Assembly: GCF_004365655.1 (NCBI RefSeq)
Contig: NZ_SOEO01000002.1
Location: 1 to 64,000, forward strand
DNA: 64,000 nt
DNA from: Epilithonimonas xixisoli
GTDB taxonomy: Bacteria > Bacteroidota > Bacteroidia > Flavobacteriales > Weeksellaceae
Direction of reading: 5' to 3'
The position numbers were made by a program, and so were the translations under genes. The notes beneath the pieces are model-generated. The model was not told the origin of the DNA, made no database searches, and saw only the letters and a list, made by a program, of their open reading frames with translations. Positions 22,251-48,086 of the stretch are shown here, piece after piece; positions within the stretch are counted from its first letter, which is position 1; every line of letters starts with the position of its first letter.

Positions 22251-22444
22251 TGTATTAAATTTTATATCTGATTTTCAGCTAATTAAACTATTTTGTATTA
22301 AAATTTAATACATTTATTTGTTTAGTTTAATACTTTGTTTTAGATTTGTATTCAAGATTTACATACATAGTATTAAATTCACTTACTTACTAAGTACAAA
22401 TATATAAAATTAACAAATAGTAATAATAATACAAACATATTAAA
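22251..22444. promoter_or_regulatory. Repressor operator region between lysogeny and early genes
   Basis: The half-site (T/A)GTATTAAA occurs five times: at 22,251-22,259, as the perfect palindrome TGTATTAAA-A-TTTAATACA at 22,294-22,312 (two half-sites), inverted at 22,326-22,334 and direct at 22,369-22,377. Repeated palindromic sites between divergent repressor and early genes are the classic layout of a lysis-lysogeny switch. Promoters must lie here, but I cannot fix them confidently. Confidence 0.7.
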
Positions 22445-33911: not shown

Positions 33912-33945
33912 AAATATCAGTAACTGATATTTATTTTTATCTTTG
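33912..33945 (+). promoter_or_regulatory. Late-module promoter with shared palindrome, copy 1
   Basis: The 21-bp palindrome AAATATCAGT-A-ACTGATATTT at 33,912-33,932 is followed by TATCTTTG (33,938-33,945), a TAnnTTTG -7 box. No TTG lies at the normal -33 position, which the palindrome occupies. It controls the ParB-like to head gene module. Confidence 0.65.
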
Positions 33946-33984
33946 TGGTTAGTAATTCTTTTCATAGTTTATTTTTTTGAGATT

Positions 33985-34015
33985 CCTCGCTACCAGATTC
34001 GTCGAAGTAGTGAGG
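33985..34015 (+). promoter_or_regulatory. Leader hairpin before the ParB-like gene
   Basis: CCTCGCTAC (33,985-33,993) pairs with GTAGTGAGG (34,007-34,015) with one G-T pair around a 13-nt loop. It lies in the presumed 5' leader of the first late transcript, 20 nt before the ATG. It could affect stability or translation; function not known. Confidence 0.4.
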
Positions 34016-34034
34016 ATTTCAAAATTCCGAGAAT

Positions 34035-34616
34035 ATGCAAGTACAAAACATCAAAATATCAAAACTCCGCTTCAACGACGGGCAGATCGATGGACTTCCA
34101 AAAAATCCACGATTTATCCGTGATTATCGCTTTGAAAAGCTTGTGCAATCGCTGAAAGATGATCCAGAAATGCTTGAGATCCGAGAATTGATCGTAATTC
34201 CGTTCAATGACTGTTATCTCGTTATCGGTGGAAATATGCGACTGCGCGCAATGCGAGAGCTTGGATTTACCGAAGCAATTTGCAAAGTACTTCCAGAAGA
34301 TACGCCAGTTAAAAAACTTCGTGCGTATGCCATCAAAGATAACGTTGCGTACGGATCTGACGATAATGATGCCTTAGCAAACGAATGGGATGCAATTGAA
34401 CTCGAACACTGGGGTGTTGAATTTCCAATTTTCGAAGAACCGGAAGAAGAAAAAGAAACGCTTCCAAAGGCTGACGAAGACAATATGATCGCCATCACTT
34501 TGACCGATGAAGAAAAAGCTGAATGGGAAAATGCCAAGGCCTATGTAAAACTGAAAGACGATAAAAAATCCCTCTTCAAAATAATTCTAAGGCTTTACGA
34601 AGCTGAAAATAACTAA
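34035..34616 (+). CDS. ParB/Srx-like domain protein
   Basis: 193 residues. The N-terminal ParB-like nuclease fold (about residues 1-115) has KNPRFIRDYR, the core VIGGNMRLRAMRELG, and AYAIKDNVAYGS. The C-terminal part (about 125-193) is acidic and helical (EEPEEEKE and TLTDEEKAEWENAK). Phage ParB-like proteins near terminase genes often act in DNA packaging or modification rather than plasmid partition. No ParA is present. It is the first gene behind the late palindrome promoter. Confidence 0.75.
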   Translation: MQVQNIKISKLRFNDGQIDGLPKNPRFIRDYRFEKLVQSLKDDPEMLEIRELIVIPFNDCYLVIGGNMRLRAMRELGFTEAICKVLPEDTPVKKLRAYAIKDNVAYGSDDNDALANEWDAIELEHWGVEFPIFEEPEEEKETLPKADEDNMIAITLTDEEKAEWENAKAYVKLKDDKKSLFKIILRLYEAENN

Positions 34617-34620
34617 AATT

Positions 34621-34950
34621 ATGAGACAGGTTTTAAATTCTGAGAAAGCAAAAGAGGTTTGTAATGCTGCGGCGTTGGGTTTCGCTAATGCCGCAGCGGA
34701 AGTTTTAGCAAATAAGACCGAAGAAAGCCAAAGCTCTAAAATATCAAAATTCATTCAAGAACTGGAAAAAGAAAATCTGCAGAGAATAAAAAGAATCAAA
34801 GAAGATACTGAATATTTGACAGAAGGTCAAGGCACTTACCTATTCCCGTCTGAAAAGAAGATTTTCACAGATTCAATCGAAAGTGATAAATCATTATTGA
34901 AAATTAATCAGGATAGAATTAGAAAACTTAAGAAAAAGCATAATCTATGA
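34621..34950 (+). CDS. Coiled-coil protein with CNAAALG motif
   Basis: 109 residues. The N terminus KEVCNAAALGFANAAAEVL is an alanine-rich motif that returns in the protein at 41,556. The rest is a highly charged helix (ELEKENLQRIKRIKEDTEY and a lysine-rich end). No family recognised. It overlaps the radical SAM gene by 4 nt. Confidence 0.65.
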   Translation: MRQVLNSEKAKEVCNAAALGFANAAAEVLANKTEESQSSKISKFIQELEKENLQRIKRIKEDTEYLTEGQGTYLFPSEKKIFTDSIESDKSLLKINQDRIRKLKKKHNL

Positions 34951-36149
34951 TCTCTCCACTCACCAACGCTTTTCTGATCAATCCAATGCCACTGCAACTG
35001 ACTTTAAATCTTTGCAGTCACGGTTGTATTTACTGTTTTTCAATCTTGAACGACCCGAAGCGAAAAGCGGACTTGAAAAAAATTCTTTCAATTCTTAAGC
35101 ATCACAAAAACAGAAACGACATCACAAGTCTTTTTCTGAAAGATAAATATCCGGTCTTGATCTCAAACAATGTTGATCCGTTTTCAAAAAACAATCACGT
35201 CCTGACAAATCAGATTCTTAAACTTTTGGTTGCTATGGACATTCCGGTTCAATTGAACACTCGTGGCGGTTATGGTTGGCAAGAAGCCAGCGAAAAAATA
35301 AAACCGTCGATTTGGTATGTTTCCGTTCCCTACTCTGATGATGAAGTCAGAAAAATCTTCGAGCCGAACGCTCCAAGTCTTGACGAGCGTTTTGAAATGG
35401 TGAAAGAGCTGGTGAAAAAACACAAGGTAATGATTGGGATCAATCCTTTTGATGCTAAGTTTTCAGACGATCACAAAGCGATTATCGATAAATATTCAGA
35501 GATCGGAGTAAAGCATTTTTGGATCAATCGCTTTCATTTGAACTACAAACAACAGTCAAATCTTACGGATAGTCAAAAAGAGATATTTGGACCAGAGTTT
35601 TTGAAACAAGCAGCTTCGAAAGATATTAATCCCGAGACCGTGAAGCTTTACATTGCTCTACGAGATTATGCTAAAGAAAAAGACTGCGAGATCATCGGTA
35701 CACCTTCCGGACATTACGAATCCTGGTTTGATGATTTCTATTCCATCTACCCGAAGACAATGCCGACGCAAAATGATTTCTTCAAATGGTGTGAGGAAAA
35801 CAAAAGCGAAGGCGACACGATTTCCTTTGACGAGTTCTTTGACTTTTTCGCTCCACTCATTCCAGATTGGGAAACGGATATTTCAAAATTCATCTACAAC
35901 AAATCGAATCTCGACGATAAAACCTTTATGAAGAAAACGAGATTAAAAAACATTCTTCACGTTTACTGGGATAGCAAAGCAGGATTGAATCTCGCAAAGA
36001 ATTATCCGGTTTTCAGCTGGTTCAAAGTGCAGACGGAAAAGAAATTGGATTGGGCGAAAGATGGCAATGGTGACAGACTTTTGATTTACCATCCGAACAA
36101 TTACAACACGAAGGAATTTTTGATTTTAGAAGAAACAAAGCAATCCTAA
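34947..36149 (+). CDS. Phage radical SAM protein, SPL-like
   Basis: 400 residues. The radical SAM cluster motif is C-x3-C-x2-C in NLCSHGCIYCFS (about residues 26-37), close to the start. Downstream come PVLISNNVDPFSKNNHV, QLNTRGGYGW and WYVSVPYSDDEVRKIFEP, in the order of the spore photoproduct lyase-like branch (SplB/COG1533). Such enzymes use a 4Fe-4S cluster and S-adenosylmethionine to start radical chemistry on DNA or other targets. The C-terminal about 130 residues carry no second cluster. The substrate is unknown. A link to DNA repair or modification is inferred from the branch and from the ParB-like neighbour. Confidence 0.82.
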   Translation: MISPLTNAFLINPMPLQLTLNLCSHGCIYCFSILNDPKRKADLKKILSILKHHKNRNDITSLFLKDKYPVLISNNVDPFSKNNHVLTNQILKLLVAMDIPVQLNTRGGYGWQEASEKIKPSIWYVSVPYSDDEVRKIFEPNAPSLDERFEMVKELVKKHKVMIGINPFDAKFSDDHKAIIDKYSEIGVKHFWINRFHLNYKQQSNLTDSQKEIFGPEFLKQAASKDINPETVKLYIALRDYAKEKDCEIIGTPSGHYESWFDDFYSIYPKTMPTQNDFFKWCEENKSEGDTISFDEFFDFFAPLIPDWETDISKFIYNKSNLDDKTFMKKTRLKNILHVYWDSKAGLNLAKNYPVFSWFKVQTEKKLDWAKDGNGDRLLIYHPNNYNTKEFLILEETKQS

Positions 36150-36161
36150 AGCAATCCAACT

Positions 36162-36572
36162 ATGAAAGAGAATTTCAAAGGTAAAGATGGCACCGCAGGC
36201 TTTCATAAAAACCCACAGAACATCAACCGTACTGGGGCAAATAGAAAGTCGTTTTCGACCATCAATGAAGCTTTGAAAAAGAAAGGCATCCAGCCACTGA
36301 AAAAGAACGAACTGATTGAAAGTTACACTTTGATCTTCAATGCGACCGAAGAGGAACTAAAACGAATTGCTGTTGATAAAAAAACGCCTTTCGCTCTTCG
36401 ATTGATAATTACCGAGCTGAATGATAAGAACACCCGAAGCAAAGCGATTGCCGATCTTCGAAATTATATGTTTGGTCAAGCTATGCAGGAGATAAACCAC
36501 ACCGTTAAGGCTCGTGTACTTACTCCCGAAGAAATGAAAGAACATCTTAAAAACTTGAACGACGAATATTAA
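36162..36572 (+). CDS. Probable terminase small subunit
   Basis: 136 residues. The basic, glycine- and asparagine-rich N terminus (NPQNINRTGANRKSF) precedes a helical domain (INEALKKKGIQPLKKNELIE, given in part) and an acidic-basic tail. Its place just ahead of the HNH and large terminase genes, its size and its N-terminal pattern fit a small subunit that recognises the packaging site. No strong motif confirms it. Confidence 0.65.
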   Translation: MKENFKGKDGTAGFHKNPQNINRTGANRKSFSTINEALKKKGIQPLKKNELIESYTLIFNATEEELKRIAVDKKTPFALRLIITELNDKNTRSKAIADLRNYMFGQAMQEINHTVKARVLTPEEMKEHLKNLNDEY

Positions 36573-36589
36573 ATATCAAAATAAAAACT

Positions 36590-36976
36590 ATGAAACTCAC
36601 CAAATCTCAAAGAGAGATATTATCTCAAAAGTATGATGGTAAGTGCGCGTACTGCGGTTGTGAGTTGCAAAAAGGCTGGCACGCCGATCATATAGAAGCT
36701 TGTGTGAGAAATCGCAGTTATGTTGACGGTAAAGGATGGATCTTCGATGGAACATTTGAAAAGCCAGAAAATAATCATATCGGTAATTTCAATCCTTCTT
36801 GTCCAAAATGCAATATCAATAAGCATCAAATGACTATAGAACAATTTCGAGATTCAATCAAACAGTATGTTCAAAGCCTTAATAAATATTCAGTTCAATA
36901 TCAAATGGCGAAGAAATACAACCTCATTAATGAGACCGAAATCGAAGTTGTATTTTATTTCGAAACAATAAAATAA
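36590..36976 (+). CDS. HNH endonuclease next to terminase
   Basis: 128 residues. The HNH fold is visible: CAYCGCEL (first metal pair), HADHIEA (the catalytic His region), FNPSCPKCNINK (second metal pair) and a final helix. HNH proteins beside the large terminase are needed for cos-type packaging in several siphoviruses. It lies between the small and large subunit genes with a 3-nt gap to the latter. Confidence 0.85.
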   Translation: MKLTKSQREILSQKYDGKCAYCGCELQKGWHADHIEACVRNRSYVDGKGWIFDGTFEKPENNHIGNFNPSCPKCNINKHQMTIEQFRDSIKQYVQSLNKYSVQYQMAKKYNLINETEIEVVFYFETIK

Positions 36977-36979
36977 CAA

Positions 36980-38467
36980 ATGTCCACCGCCACCGAAATA
37001 AGAGATGTAGATATAACAAAAACGTGGGCTTTAGAGTCGACACTTAATTTCACTCGCTATTTCTTCAAGAAAAATTTCGGTAAAAAGTTCATCGTAAATG
37101 ATCATCATAGAATTATTTGCAACGCTCTTGATCGAGTTATCCAAGGCAAGACAAAACGCTTAATGCTCAATGTAGCACCTCGTTACTCAAAGACTGAACT
37201 CGTCATTAAAAACTTCTCTGCTTACGGTTTCGCAATCAATCCAGCATCCAAATTCATACACCTCTCCTACTCTGCCGACCTCGCAATGGATAACAGCCGA
37301 GAAGTTCAAGACACGGTAACAAGTGAAGCTTTTCAAGAACTATTTGACGTAACTCTTACATCAGAATCAAAAAAGAAATGGCAGACGACCGAAGGCGGTG
37401 GTTTTTACGCTGTTAGTTCTGGTGGTCAGGTAACTGGTTTTGGAGCCGGTGCGGTCCAATCAGAAAACCAAGATGATGAAGATATTGATTTTGAAAACTT
37501 CATTCCTTATTTCGATTCTGAGTTTGCCGGTGCAATTCTTATCGATGACCCGATAAAACCAGATGACGCGCAATCCGACCAAAAGAGAGAAGCGGTAAAT
37601 CTTAAATTTGACACTACGATTCGGAACCGTGTAAATTCGCGAGATACGCCGATAATCATCATTATGCAAAGGCTTCATATGAACGACCTTTGCGGATACC
37701 TTCAAAAATTGGAAGGCGTTCTCGGGATTGATGATGGCGGTGAATGGGAATTGATCGAGCTTCCTTGTCTCCAAACCGATGAAAACGGAGAAGAAAAAGC
37801 ATTGTGGCCACACAAACACACGGTGGAAGAGTTACACCAGATGAGATTAAAAAGTCCGTTTGTTTTCGAAACGCAATATCAACAAAATCCAAAACCAAAA
37901 GAAGGATTAATGTATGACAGACCTTTTCGGACATATCCATATCCGACAATTCCGTACACTTCCAGTAATATCAAAAAAAGTTACACCGATTCCGCAGACA
38001 CAGGTGGTGATTATTTATGTTCCATCTGCTACACGGAAACCGATTACGGAAACTTTGTTGAAGATATTCTATTTACGACAAAATCGATGGAATACACCGA
38101 GCCGAAGATGGCCGAAATGTTGGCAAAACATCAAACATCAACTGCTTACATCGAATCCAACAATGGAGGGCGAACTTTCGGGCGTAATGTGGAACAACAA
38201 ACAAGGATTCTGGGAAACAACACAACCGAATTTGATCTATTCCACCAAGGCGACAATAAAGATGTCAGAATCTTCACCAAATCAAACGAAGTTATGAATC
38301 TTACTTTCTTTCCCGAAGGCTGGGATAAGATGTGGCCAACATTTTACACCCACGTTACCAATTATATGAAGACCGGAAAGAATAAAAATGATGATGGTCC
38401 TGATGTACTTACAGGAATGGTTGAAAAACGAGGTGAGGAAGGTGAAGACCCAAGCGATTATTTTTAA
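36980..38467 (+). CDS. terL: Terminase large subunit
   Basis: 495 residues. The ATPase domain has an adapted Walker A, NVAPRYSKTE (residues 64-73), and Walker B GAILIDD (about 184-190, with the acidic pair at its end). The nuclease domain begins about residue 330 (SYTDSADTGGDYL) with acidic metal ligands and AYIESNNGG. It pumps phage DNA into the procapsid and cuts the concatemer. Length and motif order are normal. Confidence 0.92.
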   Translation: MSTATEIRDVDITKTWALESTLNFTRYFFKKNFGKKFIVNDHHRIICNALDRVIQGKTKRLMLNVAPRYSKTELVIKNFSAYGFAINPASKFIHLSYSADLAMDNSREVQDTVTSEAFQELFDVTLTSESKKKWQTTEGGGFYAVSSGGQVTGFGAGAVQSENQDDEDIDFENFIPYFDSEFAGAILIDDPIKPDDAQSDQKREAVNLKFDTTIRNRVNSRDTPIIIIMQRLHMNDLCGYLQKLEGVLGIDDGGEWELIELPCLQTDENGEEKALWPHKHTVEELHQMRLKSPFVFETQYQQNPKPKEGLMYDRPFRTYPYPTIPYTSSNIKKSYTDSADTGGDYLCSICYTETDYGNFVEDILFTTKSMEYTEPKMAEMLAKHQTSTAYIESNNGGRTFGRNVEQQTRILGNNTTEFDLFHQGDNKDVRIFTKSNEVMNLTFFPEGWDKMWPTFYTHVTNYMKTGKNKNDDGPDVLTGMVEKRGEEGEDPSDYF

Positions 38468-38488
38468 ACAAAAACTAACTATATACCA

Positions 38489-39964
38489 ATGACAACTGAG
38501 CAATTAAAAGAGATAACCGATAAACTGAGAAGCGGTTCCGAGCTGGAAGATACTATTTCCGCACTCAAGAAAACACGCATTGTAGATCTTCCAAAAGTTG
38601 AAGACATCAAAAAGGAGTTGGACCCAGCGCAACATAAAGTTTTCGACACTACTTACCGAAAGGATAAAAAAGTCAAAGCAGATGATGGTGAAACCGCTGA
38701 CGGTGGTGTAAAGGTAGTGACGGTAAGCGGAGCAAAAAAAGAAATCGCAATGAAGATCGAGCCGGTTACTCGAATTGCTTTGGCGTACCAGGAGATTATT
38801 GTCAATCGTGCTGCAGCTTTTCTTTTTGGTTTTCCCGTGGATTACCAAACGGAATCCGAAGATGCCAAAGAAGAGGAAGTCTTGAAAGCAGTTCAAAGAA
38901 TCATCCACGACAACAAAATGGAATATTTCGACCTCGATATGGCAAAAGAACTTTTATCTTTTACCGAGGTTGCGGAGATGTGGTTCCCTGTTGAAACGGA
39001 CAAAGAACACGAGATATACGGGTTTAAGACAAAATTCAAATTGAAGTGTATTTCCTTCAAACCTTCAAAAGATGAAGAATTGTATCCTACTTTTGACGAG
39101 TACGGAGATCTTGTTGCTTTCTCCCGTGCCTACTCCCGTAAGGTTGGAGATAAGAGCGTAAAGTATTTTGAAACGCATACCGCTGAATTCTTTTACAGGT
39201 TTGAAAATACCGATGGCTGGAAAGCTTCTGATACATATCCGAAACCAAATCCAATCGGTAAAATTCCAATCGTTTTCGGGAACAAACTCGCAAAGGATTG
39301 GGATAAAGTCCAGAACATCATCGAGAGTGATGAAGATCTTCGCTCCAACTTTTCCGATACGAATAAGTATCATTCCGCTCCGACAATGTTTATCAAAGGA
39401 AAAATAACTGGCTTCGCTAAAAAAGGTGAATCTGGAAAACTAATTCAAGGTGACGCAAATACAGAAGCGGCATACCTGGAATGGAAGGCGGCGTCTGAAA
39501 GTGTAAAACTTGAACACTCTATGAACCGTGAAGATATTTTCTCTTTAACACAAACGCCTGATATATCTTTCAACAATATCAAAGACATAGGAAATCTCGG
39601 ACTTGGTGCGCAGAAAATGCTGTTTATGGATGCTCACTTGAAAGTTAAAGATAATATGCTTGTCTTTGGTCCATATCTGCAAAGACGAATCAATATCATC
39701 AAGGCTTACATTGCAATGTTCAACACCTCTATGCAAGATGCTTGTGATAAAGTCATTATCAAACCGGTTGTAACGCCTTACATTCTCGGAGACGACAAAG
39801 AAACTGCCGATATACTTTCAGTTGCCGTAAACTCAGGATTTATGAGCAAGAAATCAGCGGTATCCAACTTCGATTGGGTGCAAGATGCTGACAAAGAATT
39901 TGCTCAGATCCAAGCCGAAGAAAGAGCGGCGCAAATCATCGATAATTTTCCACCTGCAGAATAA
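38489..39964 (+). CDS. Phage portal protein
   Basis: 491 residues, in the size range of the SPP1 gp6-like portal family. It follows the terminase directly, has a conserved-looking region REDIFSLTQTPDISFNNIKD in the C-terminal third and the segment IALAYQEIIVNRAAAFLFG near residue 92. The portal forms the 12-subunit gate through which DNA is packaged and leaves. The stop is followed within 7 nt by the next head gene. Confidence 0.85.
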   Translation: MTTEQLKEITDKLRSGSELEDTISALKKTRIVDLPKVEDIKKELDPAQHKVFDTTYRKDKKVKADDGETADGGVKVVTVSGAKKEIAMKIEPVTRIALAYQEIIVNRAAAFLFGFPVDYQTESEDAKEEEVLKAVQRIIHDNKMEYFDLDMAKELLSFTEVAEMWFPVETDKEHEIYGFKTKFKLKCISFKPSKDEELYPTFDEYGDLVAFSRAYSRKVGDKSVKYFETHTAEFFYRFENTDGWKASDTYPKPNPIGKIPIVFGNKLAKDWDKVQNIIESDEDLRSNFSDTNKYHSAPTMFIKGKITGFAKKGESGKLIQGDANTEAAYLEWKAASESVKLEHSMNREDIFSLTQTPDISFNNIKDIGNLGLGAQKMLFMDAHLKVKDNMLVFGPYLQRRINIIKAYIAMFNTSMQDACDKVIIKPVVTPYILGDDKETADILSVAVNSGFMSKKSAVSNFDWVQDADKEFAQIQAEERAAQIIDNFPPAE

Positions 39965-39971
39965 TTGAGTT

Positions 39972-40457
39972 ATGGGAATTAAAATTGAAATGAATCTCAT
40001 CGATCCGGAAATGTTTACAGATGCTGTGCAGGAAGTTGTTATCCAGATTTTAGAATCAACACTCTTGGAAATTCAAGAGGAAGCTAAAAAAAAAGTGAAT
40101 GCAAATTCCGACAAAGTTTATAAAGACAGAACAAATTTTCTTAATTCATCAATAGGTTTTGTGATATATCAAAATGGGGAGTTTGTTAAATCTAATTTTT
40201 TTGCTTCCGGAGTTGGAGAAGGGAAAGATGGGCAAAAAGGCGTATTAACAGGTGAAGACTTAGGTAACGAAGTGGCACAGAATTTTACATCTGGATTTGT
40301 TTGCGTGATGGTTGCGGGTGCTGATTACGCTTTATATGTTGAATCAAAAGGATTTGATGTTCTGACTGGAAGTTGGATGGAATTTGATTCTATTTTCAAG
40401 AAAAATGCAGAGAATATAAGCTTAGCGACAGGGATTGAATTCGTAAATAAGAAATAG
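39972..40457 (+). CDS. Head-tail joining protein, HK97 gp10-like
   Basis: 161 residues. The C-terminal region AGADYALYVESKGFDVLTGS is the hallmark of the HK97-gp10-like group, which has Y-A-x-Y-V-E-x-K-G in the same place. A helical N terminus (EEAKKKVNANSDKVYKDR) precedes it. Such proteins join head and tail. The gene sits between portal and head-morphogenesis genes, an unusual but known position in this phage type. Confidence 0.65.
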   Translation: MGIKIEMNLIDPEMFTDAVQEVVIQILESTLLEIQEEAKKKVNANSDKVYKDRTNFLNSSIGFVIYQNGEFVKSNFFASGVGEGKDGQKGVLTGEDLGNEVAQNFTSGFVCVMVAGADYALYVESKGFDVLTGSWMEFDSIFKKNAENISLATGIEFVNKK

Positions 40458-41543
40458 ATGCGCAGACTATCACCAGAAGAAATCGCACGCCAAAAACGTT
40501 TGGAGACTTTGGAAAAGGAACTTAAAAAAATCCTTCTCCAAAGCTTTTCCCTATCTATCAATCTGCCACAGATCCAGAACGCTATCAAGAATCTGAATGG
40601 GCAATTTTCGATTACTCAGAATAAATTATTGGTCCGTAAAATAAACACCATTCTCCGAAATCAGTTTTCAAAATTTAATCTGACTTTAATCAATGGCATT
40701 CAGAAAGAATTTACTATTGCCTCGGATGATCTCTGGAATAATCTCGGTAAAAGATATTCTAAATCGATAGCGCAGGCCAAAGCTTTTGATTTTATTCGAA
40801 ATCAGGCGACCGGAACCGTACGAGATATTGCTTCGCAGAGCAAAACTTTTATTGACACCCAGAAGGGGGGACTGAAATTATCTGACCGAGTTTGGAAGGC
40901 TTTTGAGAACATCCCGAAAGAAATTGATGTAATGGTGCAGAATCACATCAAAGAGGGGAAATCTCCACAGATGTTGGCGCGTGAGCTTCAAAAGAATCTA
41001 ACTGAGCCAAATCGAATTTTTAGACGAGTGACAAATCCGAAAACGGGTAAACTTGAATGGAGTAAAGCAGCAAAAAATTATCATCCCGGTCAGGGAGTTT
41101 ATCGATCTTCGTATAAAAATGGATTACGATTGGCAAGAACTGAAATAAACGGCGCTTATCGATTAGCGGAATGGAACGGGTACCAAAATAATCCATTGAT
41201 AAGTGGTTTTGAAATTATGCTGAGTAATAATACTGAAAATCAATGTGAAACCTGCAAACGCTTGGCTGGAATTTATCCAAAATGGTTTAAATGGAGTAGC
41301 TGGCATCCACATTGCCGATGTAGAATGATTCCAATTCTTATTACAATGGCTGAGCGACAACAATTAGCAATTCTCACTTTACAGAGAAAGAAAAGCGAGT
41401 TTAAACCGAAATTTATCAAAGATCTTCCACCTCAATTTATCAGCTACTTACAAGACAACAAGGAACGGATTTCGAATGCTTCGAGCTTGCCTTATTGGTT
41501 TGAGGATAATGTGGAAGAATTGCAGAAGATATTAACTTTGTAA
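40458..41543 (+). CDS. Head morphogenesis protein (Mu gpF / SPP1 gp7-like)
   Basis: 361 residues. The diagnostic C-terminal motif ENQCETCKRLAG, then WSSWHPHCRCRMIPIL, has the metal-binding Cys/His spacing of the phage Mu F family. Upstream is the typical ARTEINGAYRLAEWNGY. It takes part in assembling the procapsid and is packaged near the portal in related phages. The gene starts immediately after the stop of its neighbour. Confidence 0.88.
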   Translation: MRRLSPEEIARQKRLETLEKELKKILLQSFSLSINLPQIQNAIKNLNGQFSITQNKLLVRKINTILRNQFSKFNLTLINGIQKEFTIASDDLWNNLGKRYSKSIAQAKAFDFIRNQATGTVRDIASQSKTFIDTQKGGLKLSDRVWKAFENIPKEIDVMVQNHIKEGKSPQMLARELQKNLTEPNRIFRRVTNPKTGKLEWSKAAKNYHPGQGVYRSSYKNGLRLARTEINGAYRLAEWNGYQNNPLISGFEIMLSNNTENQCETCKRLAGIYPKWFKWSSWHPHCRCRMIPILITMAERQQLAILTLQRKKSEFKPKFIKDLPPQFISYLQDNKERISNASSLPYWFEDNVEELQKILTL

Positions 41544-41555
41544 AAACTAAAACCA

Positions 41556-41969
41556 ATGAGAGCGATACATTACATAGAGAAGAGAAAAGAAATTTGCAAT
41601 GCTGCTGCTTTAGGAATGGCTAATGCAGCAGCGGAAATTGAAGCAACTAAGCCAGAGACTGCTACTAAATTAGATCCAGAAGATTTAGTAACTCATTTTA
41701 ATGAAAAACACGGAGGGAAAGGACTTTTAAGTGGTATTAAAATTGGAATTTGGAATAAAGGTGACATCAATCGTATTTATATTAATGGCGCAGGTTACAA
41801 CACTAAGAAAGTAAAACAATCTGTATATGTAGATCTTAATACAGGTAAGTTAAGTGTTTACACTGACTCTAATCAACCAAGTAAGTGGAATATTTCTCAA
41901 AGCAATGAATTAAGAGAGAGTAAGCAGGTTCAAATGGTATTACGATACATTAATAGATATAAAAAATAG
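41556..41969 (+). CDS. CNAAALG-motif protein after head morphogenesis gene
   Basis: 137 residues. The N terminus (KRKEICNAAALGMANAAAE) shares its motif with the protein at 34,621. The rest is different: a beta-rich domain with GIKIGIWNKGDINRIYING and QSVYVDLNTGKLSVYTDS. No family recognised. It is the last rightward gene before the leftward accessory block, and its transcript ends in a shared bidirectional terminator. Confidence 0.65.
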   Translation: MRAIHYIEKRKEICNAAALGMANAAAEIEATKPETATKLDPEDLVTHFNEKHGGKGLLSGIKIGIWNKGDINRIYINGAGYNTKKVKQSVYVDLNTGKLSVYTDSNQPSKWNISQSNELRESKQVQMVLRYINRYKK

Positions 41970-41994
41970 CAGGAAATTATCCTGCTATTTTTAT
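41966..41994. terminator. Bidirectional terminator between late genes and accessory block
   Basis: AATAGCAGGA (41,966-41,975) pairs perfectly with TCCTGCTATT (41,981-41,990) around AATTA, with A-tract before and T-tract after. It begins at the stop codon of the rightward gene and separates it from the leftward block. Confidence 0.85.
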
Positions 41995-42036
41995 TAATTT
42001 GTCTATGTGATCTTTTAATTTTTGCAAGTCTGTCAG

Positions 42037-42165
42037 TAAATATTTATTACTCCCTTTTCTTTTTCTTTTAAGCTCAGCGCCTTTAGTAGAACAACCAATA
42101 ATTTCAGCAATCTGGCGATCGTTGTATCTAGATAACCTAATTAATTTTAATATTTTAAAGTGTAG
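42037..42165 (-). pseudogene. HTH-like reading frame without start codon
   Basis: Directly after the TGA of the 80-residue gene, and in the same frame, 43 sense codons follow up to a second TGA at 42,034-42,036. The stretch RYNDRQIAEIIGCSTKGAEL looks like a helix-turn-helix. No ATG, GTG or TTG begins it. It is either a remnant of a DNA-binding gene, a start at a rare codon, or an extension reached by reading through the TGA, which is followed by CTA. Confidence 0.4.
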
Positions 42166-42408
42166 TCAATCCTCTTCGTTGTTTTCTTCCTCTACCTCGA
42201 AATAATCATCACCAGCTGAAACATACTCATCACCTTGCTTTGCAATTATTTGCCCTGACGGAGATTTTATAGTTTCATTTTCATTGTCGTAAACATAATT
42301 GTTATTAGTGAAATCTTCTACCACTACGAACAACTGACCTAAGGCCTCTTGTTTTGTTAATCCGGTTTTTAAATCTTTTCCGTTTTGTGTAATTTTAAAT
42401 GTTGACAT
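42166..42408 (-). CDS. Small acidic protein
   Basis: 80 residues, very acidic at the C terminus (DYFEVEEENNEED). A strand-like first half (FKITQNGKDLKTGLTKQEAL) may form a small beta fold. It has its own promoter region with a palindrome, apart from the rest of the leftward block. Small acidic phage proteins sometimes mimic DNA or block host factors, but nothing here proves this. Confidence 0.6.
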   Translation of the reverse strand: MSTFKITQNGKDLKTGLTKQEALGQLFVVVEDFTNNNYVYDNENETIKSPSGQIIAKQGDEYVSAGDDYFEVEEENNEED

Positions 42409-42446
42409 AATATTTATTTTTATAGGTACAAATCTAAATAAAAAAT

Positions 42447-42477
42447 ATATTTAGTTCCAAATATAAGAACTAAATAT
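42447..42477 (-). promoter_or_regulatory. Promoter inside a palindrome
   Basis: ATATTTAGTTC (42,447-42,457) and its inverted copy GAACTAAATAT (42,467-42,477) flank the minus-strand box TATATTTG (42,458-42,465), which fits TAnnTTTG. A protein bound to the palindrome would cover the -7 box of the acidic-protein gene. A second TAGATTTG lies closer to the gene at 42,429-42,436. Confidence 0.5.
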
Positions 42478-42549
42478 TATATAACTCATTGATAACCAAT
42501 ACAATTATTTTACAACAATTTCACAAACTCGTGTGAGGGTGCGAAAAAA

Positions 42550-43131
42550 TTATTTTATTTCAAGTTCTTTTTCGGTCATGTCAAAATAAATATTTTGAAA
42601 GTGATGAACAAATTTAATCTTTAACTTTTCTTTTATTTGAGCATACTGGCCTATTTCAATATACCATCCATTGTAAGGATAACAAACAAATTCACGATTA
42701 GAAAGTCCGCTGTCTAGTGTGTAGCTAAAATCTTCAGAAAATTTATCATTTGGGTCATAAGTCTCCCTAAAATCACAACTTATAAAACCAAACTTCAATA
42801 ACCATTCTTCTGTTAATGGAATAGGAAAAAATGAATTTATACTTTCATAATGAGTCTCACCATTGTAAAGACAGTGTATATAATCTTTGCCAACGCCAAT
42901 AATCTCAACAATTCCTAATACAGAATGATTTACAAGATTTCCTAATCTTAATTCTTTTTGGTCCATATCAGTTACAATAATTTCTAAACGACCGACTTCA
43001 ATCCCTTCTGAGTCAAAAGATCGAAAAACCTCTACTGTTTTACCTGTTATCTCTTTGCCTTTTCCATTTATTGAAATAAGACCATTTTCAGTGGATGGCG
43101 CAAAAGATTCTTTATTAAAGTCATTTCCCAT
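42550..43131 (-). CDS. Accessory protein, unknown function
   Basis: 193 residues. The middle and C-terminal pattern (ELRLGNLVNH, FPIPLTEEWLLKFGF, and FVHHFQNIYFDMTEKELEI) is of a kind I have seen in many Bacteroidota phage proteins: a small beta-rich domain followed by a helix. Function unknown. It is separated by 9 nt from the SprT-like gene upstream. Confidence 0.65.
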   Translation of the reverse strand: MGNDFNKESFAPSTENGLISINGKGKEITGKTVEVFRSFDSEGIEVGRLEIIVTDMDQKELRLGNLVNHSVLGIVEIIGVGKDYIHCLYNGETHYESINSFFPIPLTEEWLLKFGFISCDFRETYDPNDKFSEDFSYTLDSGLSNREFVCYPYNGWYIEIGQYAQIKEKLKIKFVHHFQNIYFDMTEKELEIK

Positions 43132-43140
43132 ATCTCAAAT

Positions 43141-43746
43141 TTAATTATTTTCTTCAAACTCAACATCACATTTTTTACAAACAATCTCAAGACCAGTCTT
43201 CCCCCAGACGTTGCACCCGCAGGAACAGGTATATTTTGAGCGTTTGCCATCGGCTCCACTCTTCTGTACTTTATCCTTTTTGACCGCGCTAATTTCCAAA
43301 GTTTTGAATCGGGTTTCCTGCAGTTTCTGAAATGCTTTTTCAAATGGTCCGTCGTCAATAACGTAATCATACATCCTTCTGCCAGTTTTGAATCCGTCGG
43401 GCGTTCCTGTGTCGGATGTTTGCAAACCTACATTTTTCATTATCTCAGAGAACTCTAAATTGTGATAACCGGATCTACCAGGTTTGCCGAAAAGATACTG
43501 ATACAGATGACACATCTCGTGAACAATTGTTTGGTGAAACTCGATGTCATAAGGCTCGATGTAGTCTGGGTTCACAGTCAGCTCGTGAATCATTTGACCG
43601 TCTTTTGACTTCCATTTGTCAGGCTGGAACATTCCCGACATTTTATGATCTCTGGAAATAGTGATTATTACTTCTGGAAGTTTATCCTGAAACAATTCTT
43701 TGTTGTAGTAGCTGAAGGTGTTGGATATATAATTGAAGTTCTGCAT
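43141..43746 (-). CDS. SprT-like zinc metalloprotease
   Basis: 201 residues. The catalytic motif is TIVHEMCHLYQY (HExxH). A third ligand is probably His in SGYHNLEF. The C terminus has a zinc ribbon (TCSCGC and VCKKCDVEFE). SprT/Spartan-type proteases degrade proteins crosslinked to DNA. A phage copy could clear blocks on its DNA or attack host DNA-binding proteins. The name is unrelated to the gliding Spr genes. Residue pattern and length agree with the family. Confidence 0.85.
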   Translation of the reverse strand: MQNFNYISNTFSYYNKELFQDKLPEVIITISRDHKMSGMFQPDKWKSKDGQMIHELTVNPDYIEPYDIEFHQTIVHEMCHLYQYLFGKPGRSGYHNLEFSEIMKNVGLQTSDTGTPDGFKTGRRMYDYVIDDGPFEKAFQKLQETRFKTLEISAVKKDKVQKSGADGKRSKYTCSCGCNVWGKTGLEIVCKKCDVEFEENN

Positions 43747-43801
43747 AAATTTTGGTAAGATAGTTATTGGGTTTTGGATTTGTTTACGGGTTTCCGTAAT
43801 T

Positions 43802-44131
43802 CTATTTTTGTTTTATAATTCCATCAAAAAATGAGAATTCTGAACTTATTTTGCCTAGTTGAAATTCATATGCTGGAAATGATTTATCAATAATTTTTAT
43901 AAGTTCACCGAAATCGTTTGTGTTATTTGTTTTTTTAACATCATTAAGAACGTCTACCATTCCAGAAAACCAATTAGGATTTAATTCTTTCAGTCGATTC
44001 ATAGCTGTAGGTAGTTGGTGGGTCATAAAATTATCGTCAAAAATATAATTCAACATTTCATATACATCTCCGATTTCAGTCGATAATCTGCCATCTATTA
44101 TCGAAAATGCTTTTTTAAGTGTGACTTTCAT
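43802..44131 (-). CDS. Accessory protein, unknown function
   Basis: 109 residues, helical. A motif SIIDGRLSTEIGDVYEMLNY and NFMTHQLPTAMNRLKE in the first half looks conserved from what I recall of Bacteroidota phages. No enzyme motif is visible. The start overlaps the previous gene's stop by 4 nt, so the two are coupled. Confidence 0.6.
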   Translation of the reverse strand: MKVTLKKAFSIIDGRLSTEIGDVYEMLNYIFDDNFMTHQLPTAMNRLKELNPNWFSGMVDVLNDVKKTNNTNDFGELIKIIDKSFPAYEFQLGKISSEFSFFDGIIKQK

Positions 44132-44469
44132 TTTGGTTGCTTTACTGATTGGATTAAAGACTCGATTTCTTTGATTTGAAATTCAGCATATTTATCATTT
44201 TTCCATACGAATCTATTTGTTTTTAATATTTCCTCCAACATCTCAATCAATTCTGATTCTCGGTCGGGAACTTCTTCGAGGAAATGAGTAACTTCATAGA
44301 ATGATTTAAACTCATTATCGGCTTTACTAAAGTACATCTTGTTCATATTATATTCGTCTGGATTTTCAGCGGATCTCGCATTAGGGCAATCTACCCAGAC
44401 AAAGTATTTACCATCTTCTTTTGGCAGTCTCTCACTCACGGCTACCTTTATAAATTTAGTGTTGCTCAT
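44128..44469 (-). CDS. DUF551-like accessory protein
   Basis: 113 residues. The opening VAVSERLPKEDGKYFVWVD and the later FKSFYEVTHFLEEVPD match the small DUF551-type fold of phage proteins (RLPxxxGxYLV and THWxPLP). A helical C-terminal half follows. Function unknown; coupled to the next gene. Confidence 0.55.
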   Translation of the reverse strand: MSNTKFIKVAVSERLPKEDGKYFVWVDCPNARSAENPDEYNMNKMYFSKADNEFKSFYEVTHFLEEVPDRESELIEMLEEILKTNRFVWKNDKYAEFQIKEIESLIQSVKQPK

Positions 44470-44471
44470 AG

Positions 44472-44549
44472 CTAATCAGTTTTAAGGTTCGATATAATTT
44501 CGATAATGTCGCCGATGCTTCCTGCTTTCGCCCATTCTTCATCCTCTAT
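44472..44549 (-). pseudogene. C-terminal fragment of a second acyl carrier protein gene
   Basis: Minus-strand codons at 44,549-44,475 read IEDEEWAKAGSIGDIIEIIS followed by NLKTD and TAG. This matches the last part of acyl carrier proteins: I-x-D-E-x6-(S/T)-(I/V)-G-(D/E). A TAG in this frame lies directly upstream, and no start exists. The homing endonuclease gene ends within the same few bases (44,546), so the fragment begins where that gene ends. Its N-terminal two thirds, with the phosphopantetheine serine, are missing. Confidence 0.6.
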
Positions 44550-45094
44550 CTAAACCCTTTTGTCTTTTTTAATTTTCCACTACATACTAGGCTTATTCCA
44601 ACTCTACAAATATTTAATTTAGTTGCAGCTTCTTTAATACTTATAAAGCTATCAATTACATTTTCTGAATCATCAATTTGAAATATTGGCTTACTATCTT
44701 TATGATTTTTACCAGACCTTGCAACCATTAATTTATTATCAAAAGCGTGTTGTATATTATATGAAGGCGTACACCATTCTAAATTTTCTACTACATTATT
44801 TAATTTGTTTCCGTCAATATGGTTAACAAAAGGCTTATTTTCTGGGTTAGGTATAAATGATTCGGCAACCAATCTATGGATTCTTTTAGATTTAACTAAT
44901 CCGAATTTACTTAACCCAACTTCATAATAATTACCTCGTATATTTATTGATAATATCTTTCCTTTTATTGCTTGGAATTGTCCTCTATTATGGTTTGATT
45001 TCCTATCTAAACTCCTAACTTTTCCATTGTCAGATATCTGGTAGATATTTTCATATCCTACTATGTCTCTCCAATTTTCGTTAAGTCTGCTCAT
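44546..45094 (-). CDS. HNH homing endonuclease (NUMOD4-HNH-NUMOD1)
   Basis: 182 residues. An N-terminal NUMOD4 DNA-binding motif (WRDIVGYENIYQISDNGKVR) is followed by an HNH core (IHRLVAESFIPNP, then FVNHIDGNKLNNVVENLEW). The C terminus contains a NUMOD1-like helix (SIKEAATKLNICRVGISLV). These free-standing phage homing nucleases copy themselves into related phages. The gene sits between two accessory genes and abuts the acyl carrier fragment, so it may have entered by replacing the start of that gene. Both flanks should be compared with phages lacking it. Confidence 0.9.
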   Translation of the reverse strand: MSRLNENWRDIVGYENIYQISDNGKVRSLDRKSNHNRGQFQAIKGKILSINIRGNYYEVGLSKFGLVKSKRIHRLVAESFIPNPENKPFVNHIDGNKLNNVVENLEWCTPSYNIQHAFDNKLMVARSGKNHKDSKPIFQIDDSENVIDSFISIKEAATKLNICRVGISLVCSGKLKKTKGFR

Positions 45095-45096
45095 AA

Positions 45097-45573
45097 TTAA
45101 AGTATTTCAAAAATTAAAGTTCTGTCGGGATGGAAGGTTTTGGATTCGGCTTCGTCAAAAGCTTTTTCTTGATGAAAGTTCGTTTGCATTGTAAAAAATG
45201 AACCATTCAAATCATTTTTAGCAGGTTTTTCAATCGGATTCTTTTCCCAATAATAATTCGAAGCTTCTATCGCTGATATGAAAGAGTCAAGAGCGGAAGT
45301 ACAAGAATCTTCATCATCGTATAATGCGTTATAATATTTATAAAGAAATTGACCGTTTGAAGAACAATAACCACCAACCACTAATCCTTTCGCTATCTCT
45401 TCCGATAATTCAGATCCTTTGCAAATCAAATCGAATTTACCACTCATTCTAAAATTTTCTTTTGTATCATTTCCGAAAATATATAATGCATCTTCATAAA
45501 TGTAATAATCATAAATTCTCGGTGTCTCCACTACAAGAACTCTTTTATTTATGTTTAATATTGTGCTTTTCAT
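45097..45573 (-). CDS. Accessory protein, unknown function
   Basis: 158 residues, acidic, with clusters of aromatic residues (RIYDYYIYEDALYIFG and SNYYWEKNP). A two-cysteine stretch is present (GGYCSSNGQF and DSCTSAL). No family recognised. It follows a short intergenic stretch with an inverted repeat, so it may have its own promoter. Confidence 0.55.
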   Translation of the reverse strand: MKSTILNINKRVLVVETPRIYDYYIYEDALYIFGNDTKENFRMSGKFDLICKGSELSEEIAKGLVVGGYCSSNGQFLYKYYNALYDDEDSCTSALDSFISAIEASNYYWEKNPIEKPAKNDLNGSFFTMQTNFHQEKAFDEAESKTFHPDRTLIFEIL

Positions 45574-45596
45574 TTGTTTATTTTTTTAGATTATTT

Positions 45597-45631
45597 CGAC
45601 ACGTTTAAATGATATGTCGATTTTTAAACGT
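45597..45631. repeat. Inverted repeat between two accessory genes
   Basis: ACGTTTAAA (45,601-45,609) pairs with TTTAAACGT (45,623-45,631). A second small pair, CGACA (45,597-45,601) and TGTCG (45,615-45,619), overlaps it. It lies 24 nt upstream of the gene at 45,573 on the minus strand, in the promoter position. It may be an operator or a hairpin. Confidence 0.4.
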
Positions 45632-45658
45632 TTTCTTGCTTAGTCATTAGTATAAGTA

Positions 45659-45904
45659 TTAAGGGTTAAGAATTGATAGTAGTAATTTGAAAGCTTCTCC
45701 AATTGTTTTAACTCTCTCAGTTTTTTCATCTGGAATTATAATGTCGAATTCTTTTTCAATTTCAATTATAAATTGAACTTTGTCTAATGAATCAAATCCT
45801 AAGTAGTCAAAAGTAACATCATCACTTATTTGATGGTTTTGTAAATCTGGAAGTACAATTTTTAAGCACTTAACAAATGGTTCGTATATGTAATTTGGCT
45901 TCAT
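45659..45904 (-). CDS. Phage-encoded acyl carrier protein
   Basis: 81 residues, the normal length of an acyl carrier protein. The phosphopantetheine attachment site is present: YLGFDSLDKVQF, with Ser39 following Asp38. Helix II continues as IIEIEKEFDIIIPDE, and the last helix has VKTIGEAFKLLLS. Carrier proteins hold growing acyl chains through this arm. A phage copy must use host enzymes for arm attachment and acyl transfer, as no synthase genes are nearby. Its purpose in the phage is unknown. Its start overlaps the next gene upstream. Confidence 0.88.
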   Translation of the reverse strand: MKPNYIYEPFVKCLKIVLPDLQNHQISDDVTFDYLGFDSLDKVQFIIEIEKEFDIIIPDEKTERVKTIGEAFKLLLSILNP

Positions 45905-46197
45905 AATTTTGTTGATTCGAGAATATTTTTTATTTTATTTTTTTCAACTTGATATTTTGCATATGGTAGTTTGTCGAATAATAATTTCAACATTTCTCTC
46001 ATTTCATCTCTCTGCTTTAATAATTGAGAGGGGAGAAGTCCGCAGGATTGGATGGTGTTTCCGGCATCGATAATTAAATTAGCTAATTCGTTGTTTTGTT
46101 CATCTTCATTTTTCCAAACCAAACAAAGTGACTTAGTATCATTTCCGATAGCTGTTCCAACTTCATTTTGCATCACTATTTTTAATTCTGTATTCAT
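45901..46197 (-). CDS. Accessory protein upstream of acyl carrier protein
   Basis: 98 residues. Helical, with an internal pattern LANLIIDAGNTIQSCGLLPS and ELLKQRDEMREML-like helix at the C-terminal part. No family recognised. The 4-nt overlap with the acyl carrier gene means both are made together, so it may be a partner of the carrier protein. That is inferred only from coupling. Confidence 0.6.
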   Translation of the reverse strand: MNTELKIVMQNEVGTAIGNDTKSLCLVWKNEDEQNNELANLIIDAGNTIQSCGLLPSQLLKQRDEMREMLKLLFDKLPYAKYQVEKNKIKNILESTKL

Positions 46198-46199
46198 AA

Positions 46200-46328
46200 T
46201 TATTTTCGGTTTTTAAGATTTTCTTTTCTTGCTAATTTGACTTTTTTACGTCTTTGCGTGGATTTTGAACCATTAACTGAATTAGGAGAAAGTCTTTTCA
46301 CGCTCCAATAACTTCGCATATCTGTCAT
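46200..46328 (-). CDS. 42-residue basic protein
   Basis: A short frame (MTDMRSYWSVKRLSPNSVNG onward) ending in a strongly basic tail (KKVKLARKENLKNRK). It stops 2 nt before the next ATG and starts 12 nt after the preceding gene. With about one third K and R, it may bind nucleic acid. Function unknown. Confidence 0.5.
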   Translation of the reverse strand: MTDMRSYWSVKRLSPNSVNGSKSTQRRKKVKLARKENLKNRK

Positions 46329-46340
46329 AATTATTAAGTG

Positions 46341-46535
46341 TTATTTAGTTTCTAATTGTTTTAAAAGTTCGTCAACTTCATTTTCTTTGAAGTTTGCAGT
46401 CGTTTTATAGCCTTTGTCAATGCCAGCTATCAAAACCATTTTAACCTGATGTTTTGAAAGGGATTTTCCGTTATGCTCAAAAGTCTTCCAACTTGTATTG
46501 ATAGCTCTTAAGGCTCCTTGTAAGTCTGCGTGCAT
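46341..46535 (-). CDS. MHADL-family small protein, copy 1
   Basis: 64 residues, a paralog of the protein at 46,998-47,306. Both start with MHADL and share R-A-I-x-x-SWK, GK-x3-K-x-x-V, the core KGYKTTA and the acidic F-K-x-N-E-V-D. No known family. The fold is likely small and helical. The gene lies within the leftward accessory block. Confidence 0.7.
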   Translation of the reverse strand: MHADLQGALRAINTSWKTFEHNGKSLSKHQVKMVLIAGIDKGYKTTANFKENEVDELLKQLETK

Positions 46536-46559
46536 AATATTAGGTTTTAATGGTTAGGG

Positions 46560-46964
46560 TTAAAAAGGCAATTCTTTTAAATGGTTATTATCAATTTCAA
46601 TTACTGTTTTATATTCTTCAACTGTTGCTTTTAATTCGATGATTGAATCAACATAATCGTAATATGCGTGACATTCAATATTTGGCGGCGGGTAGCATCC
46701 AACTTGTGCAGGACTATAAGATAATAGAAACTTAAATTCATAAAATCCATCCTCCACTTCATAATCAAATTCCTTGAAAAATTCTTCAATCAAATCGTGG
46801 TCGACTGAATATCCGGATTCGATAAAATATGAAGATTCATCAAAGTCTGTAATTATTGAATCTTTTATAAACCCCCATCCCGAAACGGCTATAAATCTCT
46901 TATTTAAAGCATTGATAAGCTCAAATACTTCTTTCGTTGATAATTTATTTAAATCTATTTCCAT
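46560..46964 (-). CDS. Acidic accessory protein, unknown function
   Basis: 134 residues from the ATG at 46,964; a TTG 24 nt upstream is also open but less likely. Acidic, aromatic-rich, with VSGWGFIKDSIITDFDESSY and a C-terminal helix (ATVEEYKTVIEIDNNHLKEL). No family recognised. It lies between the two MHADL paralogs. Confidence 0.55.
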   Translation of the reverse strand: MEIDLNKLSTKEVFELINALNKRFIAVSGWGFIKDSIITDFDESSYFIESGYSVDHDLIEEFFKEFDYEVEDGFYEFKFLLSYSPAQVGCYPPPNIECHAYYDYVDSIIELKATVEEYKTVIEIDNNHLKELPF

Positions 46965-46997
46965 AATCTTGTATTCTATTACCGCCAAAAGCGGGGG

Positions 46998-47306
46998 TTA
47001 ATCCGCTCTTAGTTTTAAATCTTTTTTGTTGTACATTTCAACTATTGATTTTTCATCAGTAACTTCAACTTCATTTTTGCGCAGATGATAATATTGAAAT
47101 GATGGAGCAAGATTATCCCACCAATACTTTGATAAAACTAAATCAACTTCATTATCTTTAAAATCAGCAGTCGTTTTATATCCTTTTTCGATACCATATT
47201 TTAGAATATATTCTACTTCTTTTTTGTCCATTGGTTTACCATTATTTTCAAATGACTTCCAACTATTTTTAATCGCTCTTAATGAGCCTTTTAAATCTGC
47301 GTGCAT
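46998..47306 (-). CDS. MHADL-family small protein, copy 2
   Basis: 102 residues. The first 56 align with the whole 64-residue paralog at 46,341 (MHADLKGSLRAIKNSWKSFE, then GIEKGYKTTADFKDNEVD). An extra C-terminal part of about 45 residues (YWWDNLAPSFQYYHLRKN) is absent from copy 1. This is a duplication with change of length. No known family. Confidence 0.7.
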   Translation of the reverse strand: MHADLKGSLRAIKNSWKSFENNGKPMDKKEVEYILKYGIEKGYKTTADFKDNEVDLVLSKYWWDNLAPSFQYYHLRKNEVEVTDEKSIVEMYNKKDLKLRAD

Positions 47307-47338
47307 AATATCTATTGTTTATTGTTAATTCTAATTTG

Positions 47339-47524
47339 TCAAAGACCTAGTTGTTTTATAGCTGAATAGGTTAAAAAACCTTGTGATCCCCACAGTACAC
47401 CGTCGTTTGAAACTATCATCGGATAACATTTATTTAAATCACCGTAATCTTCGTCATTGTAATCTTCATCATCTTCTTCAGGGATTCGACCAAATTCATC
47501 TTCAATCAAATCATATATTTCCAA
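47339..47524 (-). CDS. Small acidic protein
   Basis: 61 residues from a TTG start; the TAA just upstream prevents a longer form. The N-terminal half is extremely acidic (EEDDEDYNDEDYGD). The second half has a small hydrophobic core (GVLWGSQGFLTYSAIKQLGL). No family recognised. Confidence 0.45.
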   Translation of the reverse strand: MEIYDLIEDEFGRIPEEDDEDYNDEDYGDLNKCYPMIVSNDGVLWGSQGFLTYSAIKQLGL

Positions 47525-47570
47525 TGTTTATCTAAATCTGATATTAGTTTCATAATAGTTTGTTTAATGG

Positions 47571-47960
47571 TTAAGAGAGTAATTCGGGGTTGTCGTGGAT
47601 ATTTCCAATCACGTGGAATCGAGTAAGAATTTCTTTAAGCCAAGTATCACCAGAAAAACCAATATCTACGCTTCGGTCTTTGGTGCCATACCTGAAACCA
47701 CCATCTTCATAATAGACTTCAAAAATTAATGGTACTTTTTCAGATGAATCTAAAATATCTCCTTCATAAATCTCTTTGCCATTCTTGTCTTTTAATCCAG
47801 TGAATTGGCTTACGGTTTCAGGTATTACTTGATAGTTGTGAGTTTCTCCATCTTGCTCTGTTTCCCAAATCTGATAATTACTACCCCAAAAAATTATGTG
47901 GCCAAAAACCCACTTTTCACCGATTGTTGTCTTGCCTCTAAATTTTATTTCTCTGTTCAT
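47571..47960 (-). CDS. YopX-family phage protein
   Basis: 129 residues from the ATG at 47,960. The longer frame upstream runs through the promoter palindrome and is not used. The YopX signature is clear: MNREIKFRGKT, then GHIIFWGSNYQIWE, and SQFTGLKDKNGKEIYEGDIL. YopX proteins are widespread in phages, with unknown role. It is the first gene of the leftward accessory block, right behind the shared palindrome. Confidence 0.85.
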   Translation of the reverse strand: MNREIKFRGKTTIGEKWVFGHIIFWGSNYQIWETEQDGETHNYQVIPETVSQFTGLKDKNGKEIYEGDILDSSEKVPLIFEVYYEDGGFRYGTKDRSVDIGFSGDTWLKEILTRFHVIGNIHDNPELLS

Positions 47961-47996
47961 AATTCTGTTATTTGATTTTAATTTCAATGCACATTG

Positions 47997-48031
47997 CAAA
48001 TGTAAAATAAAAATATCAGTAACTGTTATTT
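47997..48031 (-). promoter_or_regulatory. Accessory-block promoter with shared palindrome, copy 2
   Basis: On the minus strand, AAATAACAGT-T-ACTGATATTT (48,011-48,031) is followed by TACATTTG (47,997-48,004), a TAnnTTTG box. The palindrome differs by one base pair from copy 1. It would drive the YopX-led leftward block, 37 nt ahead of the YopX ATG. Confidence 0.6.
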
Positions 48032-48055
48032 TTGCAATAACTTTTTTAATTAAAT

Positions 48056-48086
48056 AAATATCAGTTACTGACATTTAATATATTTG
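48056..48086 (+). promoter_or_regulatory. Structural-module promoter with shared palindrome, copy 3
   Basis: AAATATCAGT-T-ACTGACATTT (48,056-48,076) is followed by TATATTTG (48,079-48,086), a TAnnTTTG box, 31 nt before the scaffold gene. It forms a divergent pair with copy 2. Confidence 0.65.

Follow-up and report, generated by a model that had tools for sequence, protein, structure and literature searches.

How are the late genes of a temperate Bacteroidota phage kept silent, and by which protein? This question is raised by a 64-kb stretch of Epilithonimonas xixisoli DNA (positions 1 to 64,000 of contig NZ_SOEO01000002.1, assembly GCF_004365655.1, hereafter the window), in which one 21-bp palindrome is repeated at three promoters of a prophage. 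To our knowledge, late-gene control in such phages has hardly been described. The analysis presented here suggests that all three palindromes serve as operators in a circuit that silences late genes and is common to a large group of temperate Bacteroidota phages. They are probably bound, and the late promoters repressed, by a small CI-like protein of the PHROG 9710 family encoded at 19850-20134, which would act separately from the main CI repressor.

Three copies of one palindrome at the late promoters

The window contains three copies of the palindrome AAATATCAGT-N-ACTGATATTT, with 0, 1 and 1 mismatches, at the positions and with the base changes already reported in an earlier note on this DNA. 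Operator 1 (33912-33932), the exact copy, stands before the first late operon, whose first gene encodes a ParB-like protein (34035-34616, plus strand, PHROG 17622). Operator 2 (48011-48031, one mismatch) belongs to the leftward accessory block, which begins with a gene of the YopX family (47571-47963, minus strand, PF09643, E 4e-21), and operator 3 (48056-48076, one mismatch) to the structural operon, which opens with the first gene of the capsid module (48117-48821, plus strand, PHROG 5824); no strand applies to the operators themselves. The open reading frame (ORF) caller placed the start of the leftward gene at 48074, within operator 3. A start near 47963 (MNREIKF...) seems likelier and would leave operators 2 and 3 intergenic.

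With up to three mismatches allowed, the window yielded the same three palindromes and no more, and dinucleotide shuffles gave 0 matches (n=100), a result on which a chance origin of the palindromes was rejected. Across the whole genome (3.39 Mb, 11 contigs), the same limit added a single match, with three mismatches and on another contig, and within two mismatches the palindrome was not found in the host genome beyond the three window sites. It thus belongs to the prophage and is not frequent at non-promoter sites of the host, which the earlier note had said would refute its proposal. A scan of a sequence collection with a 14-base core matched at least 120 stretches; only L016, L021 and L049 among the loci then compared encoded any protein matching one of the window's, in no case with clear synteny, and exact-core matches elsewhere were therefore treated as chance. 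A family-wide pattern search at two mismatches hit 25 of 320 genomes (the host's own included) versus 15 for a reversed-pattern control, and was not used as evidence.

Each palindrome is followed by a TAnnTTTG box at the -7 position. The box TATCTTTG (33938-33945, plus strand) serves the first late promoter, TACATTTG (47997-48004, minus strand) the leftward accessory block and TATATTTG (48079-48086, plus strand) the structural operon. Their offsets from the operator centres, 16, 17 and 13, agree with the 13-17 bp claimed earlier. An extra box, TATTTTTG, overlaps operator 2 at 48027-48034 on the plus strand.

Operators at equivalent promoters of related phages

Relatives were collected with three window proteins as queries (the ParB-like protein, the large terminase and the protein that opens the capsid module), and they form a group of phages keeping much of the window's gene order. 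A 21-bp palindrome with a one-base spacer was found in them before the ParB-like gene, at the place of operator 1, before the first capsid-module gene, where many relatives have a counterpart of operator 3, and often after a tail gene; operator 2 has a counterpart in G321-G324. The palindrome is a conserved late-operon operator in many temperate Bacteroidota phages, and its letters differ by phage type. The window thus has its three sites and no more, and palindromes stand at equivalent promoters of many relatives, which supports the earlier proposal that all three modules answer to one regulator.

The closest partial relative, G321, carries a different 21-bp palindrome, AAAGTACAC...GTGTACTTT, at its ParB-side and leftward promoters. 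Sites of the AAAGTATYATNATRATACTTT type occupy all three window-equivalent promoters in G322, G323 and G324, and an additional one precedes a RecT-like gene in G322 and G323. In a larger group of more distant phages, AACGTATTAA-type sites precede both the ParB-side operon and the capsid module and often follow the tail gene; some of its records have further sites between portal and minor head genes, ahead of small helix-turn-helix (HTH) or LuxR genes, or upstream of the gene for the PHROG 9710 protein. When up to one mismatch was allowed, the core GTATYANNNTRATAC gave 1-9 sites in 24 records versus means of 0-0.88 in eight shuffles each. The records G325 and G341 had one core match each, versus shuffle means of 1.25 and 1.0; neither match is intergenic, and both records were counted as site-free.

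In the annotated record of Porphyromonas phage005a, CGTGTTTTATATTAAAACACG and variants of it were found at 15275 (ahead of the ParB-like gene), 30568 (ahead of the homolog of the window gene at 48117) and 44905 (past the tail gene). A scan of this record for palindromes (pairs within five mismatches, at most three mismatches inside each) found no other repeated palindrome outside genes and one further pair inside genes. PMC10367356 describes phage005a as a prophage and reports enrichment of its DNA in particles from culture; the main text of that paper uses neither the word repressor nor the word operator. The PHROG 9710 protein of phage005a is annotated 'repressor'. Finally, G356 has four sites with the half-site RTGMTTAY, a motif fitted after two of the four had been seen; two of the four lie upstream of late genes, one at 31 bp from the ParB-like gene and the other at 67 bp from the 48117 homolog. 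At the ParB side of G329, G334, G335 and G338, the operator lies within a longer inverted repeat followed by T's, which resembles a terminator for the upstream operon and overlaps the late promoter.

Spacing between operators and promoter elements

Over 30 records, 79 boxes were found near 119 sites versus 6.2 expected, with dominant operator-to-box offsets of 18 (22 boxes), 10 (13), 17 (10) and 27 (6), near-duplicate phages inflating the counts of sites, boxes and TTG elements. At an offset of 10 the operator reaches up to or into the -7 box, whereas at 17-18 and 27 it lies over the -33 region. As the earlier note had said, none of the three window promoters, read by eye, has a TTG at -33, and across records a TTG there accompanies 5 of 62 site-linked boxes versus 18 of 81 other boxes upstream of ORFs (Fisher p 0.024). 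A scan for box-linked palindromes gave clusters of at least two in 16 of 36 records versus 2 of 36 with the box reversed; three of the 16 clusters (G325, G341 and G362) are not late-promoter repeats, and the strict limits of the scan missed real regulons (G322, G331, G336 and others).

No box was found near 41 of the 119 sites. In G335, G336, G329, G331 and G338, box-less sites lie inside a single late operon, between its portal and minor head genes, where they are possibly roadblocks.

A CI-like protein as the candidate late repressor

The candidate is a 94-aa protein with a CI-like HTH (19850-20134, minus strand; PHROG 9710, E 9e-16), of a family that PHROGs lists as of unknown function. Its gene adjoins that of the integrase (18568-19857, minus strand), an ORF whose homologs in phage005a were annotated 'integrase' by the depositor. 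A PHROG 9710 protein was detected at E < 1e-6 in 25 records, and all 25 have at least two sites; it was not found in the site-free G325 and G341, G325 having only a CI protein at E 0.08. A two-by-two table counts 22 records with gene and sites, one with sites only and two with neither (Fisher p 0.01), these records being not independent and including many near-duplicates. Left out of it were G321, G332, G333, G342, G353 and G354, which have sites and whose integrase side is not covered, the fragments G348, G349 and G350 (the gene and two sites each), and G343, G352 and G362, in which no site set was found (G343 has a weak 9710 match only). G340 was counted via two sites, one of them merely box-linked. 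In 11 of the 20 GTATYA-type records with a 9710 gene, a site lies 283-290 bp upstream of that gene, a placement that would fit self-control.

Operator divergence correlated best, of four families, with the 9710 HTH segment (r 0.76, or 0.73 with the effect of terminase distance removed; n=21), followed by the CI HTH (0.56 and 0.51; n=16), LuxR (0.44 and 0.34; n=18) and DUF3853 (0.26 and 0.19; n=19). This Mantel comparison ranks the families and does not exclude them, because 9710, CI and LuxR all reach a permutation p of 0.0005; it is further limited by few distinct operator types, by gapped HTH alignments for CI and for G337, and by near-duplicates (G322/323/324/347, G335/353, G336/338 and G344/345/346). 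The 9710 recognition segment of G356 is similar to that of G337.

An AlphaFold2 model of the protein (mean predicted local distance difference test score 81) is all-helical, with five helices. The structure nearest to it is phage 186 CI (2fjr; Foldseek E 0.025; Z 6.8, under 8; root-mean-square deviation 4.0 over 80 residues), and the next matches are a small phage antirepressor complex and other CI/Cro-type repressors. Pfam Phage_CI_repr scored 16.1 bits on the sequence, below its cut-off of 22. A model of the 9710 proteins matched 15 of 22 CI proteins weakly (E 0.0016-0.09), and a cleaned CI model matched 12 of 25 9710 proteins, again weakly (E 0.0009-0.07); a first CI model, which included the 9710 proteins of G327, G330 and G340, had given stronger values and was rebuilt without them. 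A search of PDB sequences with the 9710 protein returned nothing usable (best E 0.17).

Several observations weigh against the 9710 protein as late repressor. The record G328 (L413-L415) carries nine class-A sites and has no recognised 9710, CI, LuxR-type or integrase homolog, and the window itself has no site within three mismatches near its own 9710 gene. The dependence among the tabulated records, the permutation p that LuxR and CI share with 9710, the modest fold match to CI and the 41 sites that lack a box count in the same direction, and the poor -33 elements of the site-linked promoters also fit an activated promoter. A 54-aa HTH protein of G328, considered as its regulator, has no relative among the records compared and was rejected.

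Direction of control and other possible binders

The earlier note had proposed either an activator or a repressor. Operator geometry favours the second: the operators lie over the -33 to +1 region, which suggests repression, since their positions share no single helix face and all would hinder the polymerase. We therefore favour repression, in the lysogen and perhaps also early in infection. That the 9710 protein binds the sites and instead activates late promoters without a -33 element appears unlikely. The scarcity of TTG at site-linked boxes, the sharply conserved offsets and the retention of sites in G328, without a recognised lysogeny module, would suit such an activator, whereas offsets of 10, 17-18 and 27 do not fall on one helix face, offset-10 sites abut or overlap the box, several G328 sites overlap or follow it, and the gene adjoins CI and integrase, outside the early lytic operon. 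G328, with nine sites and no 9710 protein, would also suit another, unrecognised regulator with which PHROG 9710 merely travels, the more so as tracking by hidden Markov models across records covered just five regulator families. Such a regulator is improbable in view of the 25 of 25 gene-bearing records with sites, the two records lacking both, the eleven records with a site upstream of the 9710 gene and the best covariation being that of 9710. The palindromes could finally be RNA hairpins (terminators) or chance repeats: site 1 comes after a stop codon, and its fold is somewhat better than those of shuffled sequences (z -2.06), and the ParB-side sites of several relatives have the terminator-like setting described above. 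This explanation we regard as close to negligible, as the folds of sites 2 and 3 do not surpass those of shuffled sequences (z -0.92 and 0.33), and neither the empty shuffles nor the sharp box spacing and the recurrence in many phages would be expected from it.

Two further proteins of the prophage could read the late sites. The main CI repressor (21459-22250, minus strand) has an S24 peptidase-like C-terminus (PHROG 6201, E 7e-4; PF00717, E 5e-4, under the Pfam cut-off). It appears to be distantly related to the 9710 proteins, its HTH ranks second in covariation with the operators, and some CI-side gaps hold late-site-like repeats, for example G334 at 6010. Its likely operator is, however, TGTATTAAA-A-TTTAATACA at 22294-22312 (no strand applies), with nearby GTATTAAA half-sites, which is unlike the late operator, and the CI gap of the window contains GTATTAAA repeats instead of the late palindrome. 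Moreover, G322, G323, G324 and G347 have a single late operator type and 9710 proteins that hardly differ, against three CI HTH types and differing control-region repeats, and no CI separate from 9710 was found in the site-bearing G327. CI was not favoured on this ground, and its binding to the late sites seems quite improbable. Among these four close relatives, the N-terminal HTH of CI and the control-region repeats have been exchanged and the S24-side C-terminus kept. The LuxR/GerE-type protein (23687-24034, plus strand; PF00196, E 3e-11), one of two binders suggested in the earlier note, is encoded by 17 of the 22 larger records with sites and by the fragments G348 and G350, and in seven records a site lies 250-410 bp upstream of the gene for it. 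It does not occur wherever the sites do: a profile search found no match in the site-bearing G337, G339, G356 and phage005a (in G330 the region is not covered), and a distant, shorter homolog (E 1e-9) is encoded by the site-free G325 and G341. These two had been part of the first LuxR model, which was rebuilt without them; a single-sequence search missed both. In addition, the recognition helix is nearly identical in the window and G322 despite their different operators, and the partial correlation is 0.34. Binding by this protein, whether activating or repressing, is thus very improbable. In G326-G340, the LuxR-type proteins mostly have a hydrophobic stretch after the GerE domain, resembling a membrane helix, and then a basic tail. 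The second suggested binder, the ParB-like protein at 34,035, fares no better, as its identity does not track operator type (73% between the window and G321, whose operators differ; 48% between G322 and G323, of one operator type). DUF3853 was rejected as well; it was not found in the site-bearing G337, G339 and G356 and shows the lowest correlation.

A proposed circuit and its relation to known systems

With the 9710 protein as the preferred late repressor, the circuit could work as follows. Encoded in the leftward segment beside CI and integrase, the protein would most likely bind the palindromes as a dimer and, placed over the -33 to -7 region, keep RNA polymerase off the first late, leftward accessory and structural promoters. 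CI would control the early promoters separately via another operator. At induction, the late repressor would have to be lost, diluted or antagonised before the late genes start.

The proposed late circuit would work like known multi-site phage repressors, and neither the stoperator nor the SPBRE definition describes it. Phage 186 CI also represses a promoter on which late genes depend. With this protein and lambda-type CI the circuit has in common short palindromic operators over promoters and, by a modest match of the 9710 model, probably the CI-like HTH fold; it differs in having a second CI-like protein, without a C-terminal domain and seemingly dedicated to late operons, beside a normal CI, and operators directly on three late promoters. 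Mycobacteriophage L5-type phages likewise have one repressor with several genome-wide sites, some away from promoters, and the 41 box-less sites would be compatible with an elongation-stopping, stoperator-like role. By the definition in PMC9283540, however, a stoperator is an asymmetric site of 13 bp that a monomeric repressor binds, and the genome studied there has 26 of them, whereas the present sites are 21-bp palindromes, 1-9 per record at up to one mismatch. The SPbeta element SPBRE, a 15-bp motif, is also repeated at several phage promoters and read by a lysogeny-keeping phage repressor, MrpR, which according to the passages of PMC10516654 on this protein has a tyrosine-recombinase fold; the candidate here is a 94-aa, all-helical CI-like HTH protein, and the letters of its palindrome vary by phage type, which sets it apart from SPBRE as defined. 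In the same phylum, the LexA-like S24 regulators of the SOS response also use palindromic operators with motif turnover between regulator groups. Compared by eye, the late operator fits neither of the motifs given in the parts of PMC8565304 that list them, GGA-N5-TCC and CTAA-N5-TTAG. Searches of an open-licence library (subscription journals were outside the scope) turned up no description of this regulon, and a search for PHROG 9710 by name was unmatched.

The shared late switch that the earlier note had seen in one phage is far more widespread, and it offers a concrete late regulon with operators, promoters and a candidate repressor family. Its naturally diverged repressor-operator pairs lend themselves to the study of how DNA specificity changes. 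A more tentative idea, which we hold to be doubtful though worth stating, is that these phages have two layers of immunity, an exchangeable CI and a conserved repressor of late genes, the operator of which CI-heteroimmune phages have in common. If so, a resident prophage would silence the particle-building genes of an incoming relative with a mismatched CI, and such silencing would extend to relatives like G328, with its nine operators and no recognised repressor gene. The loci L230, L294 and L297, which are without the palindromes, have another element, ATTACG-TAAAAC-CGTAAT or close to it, upstream of the 48117 homolog.

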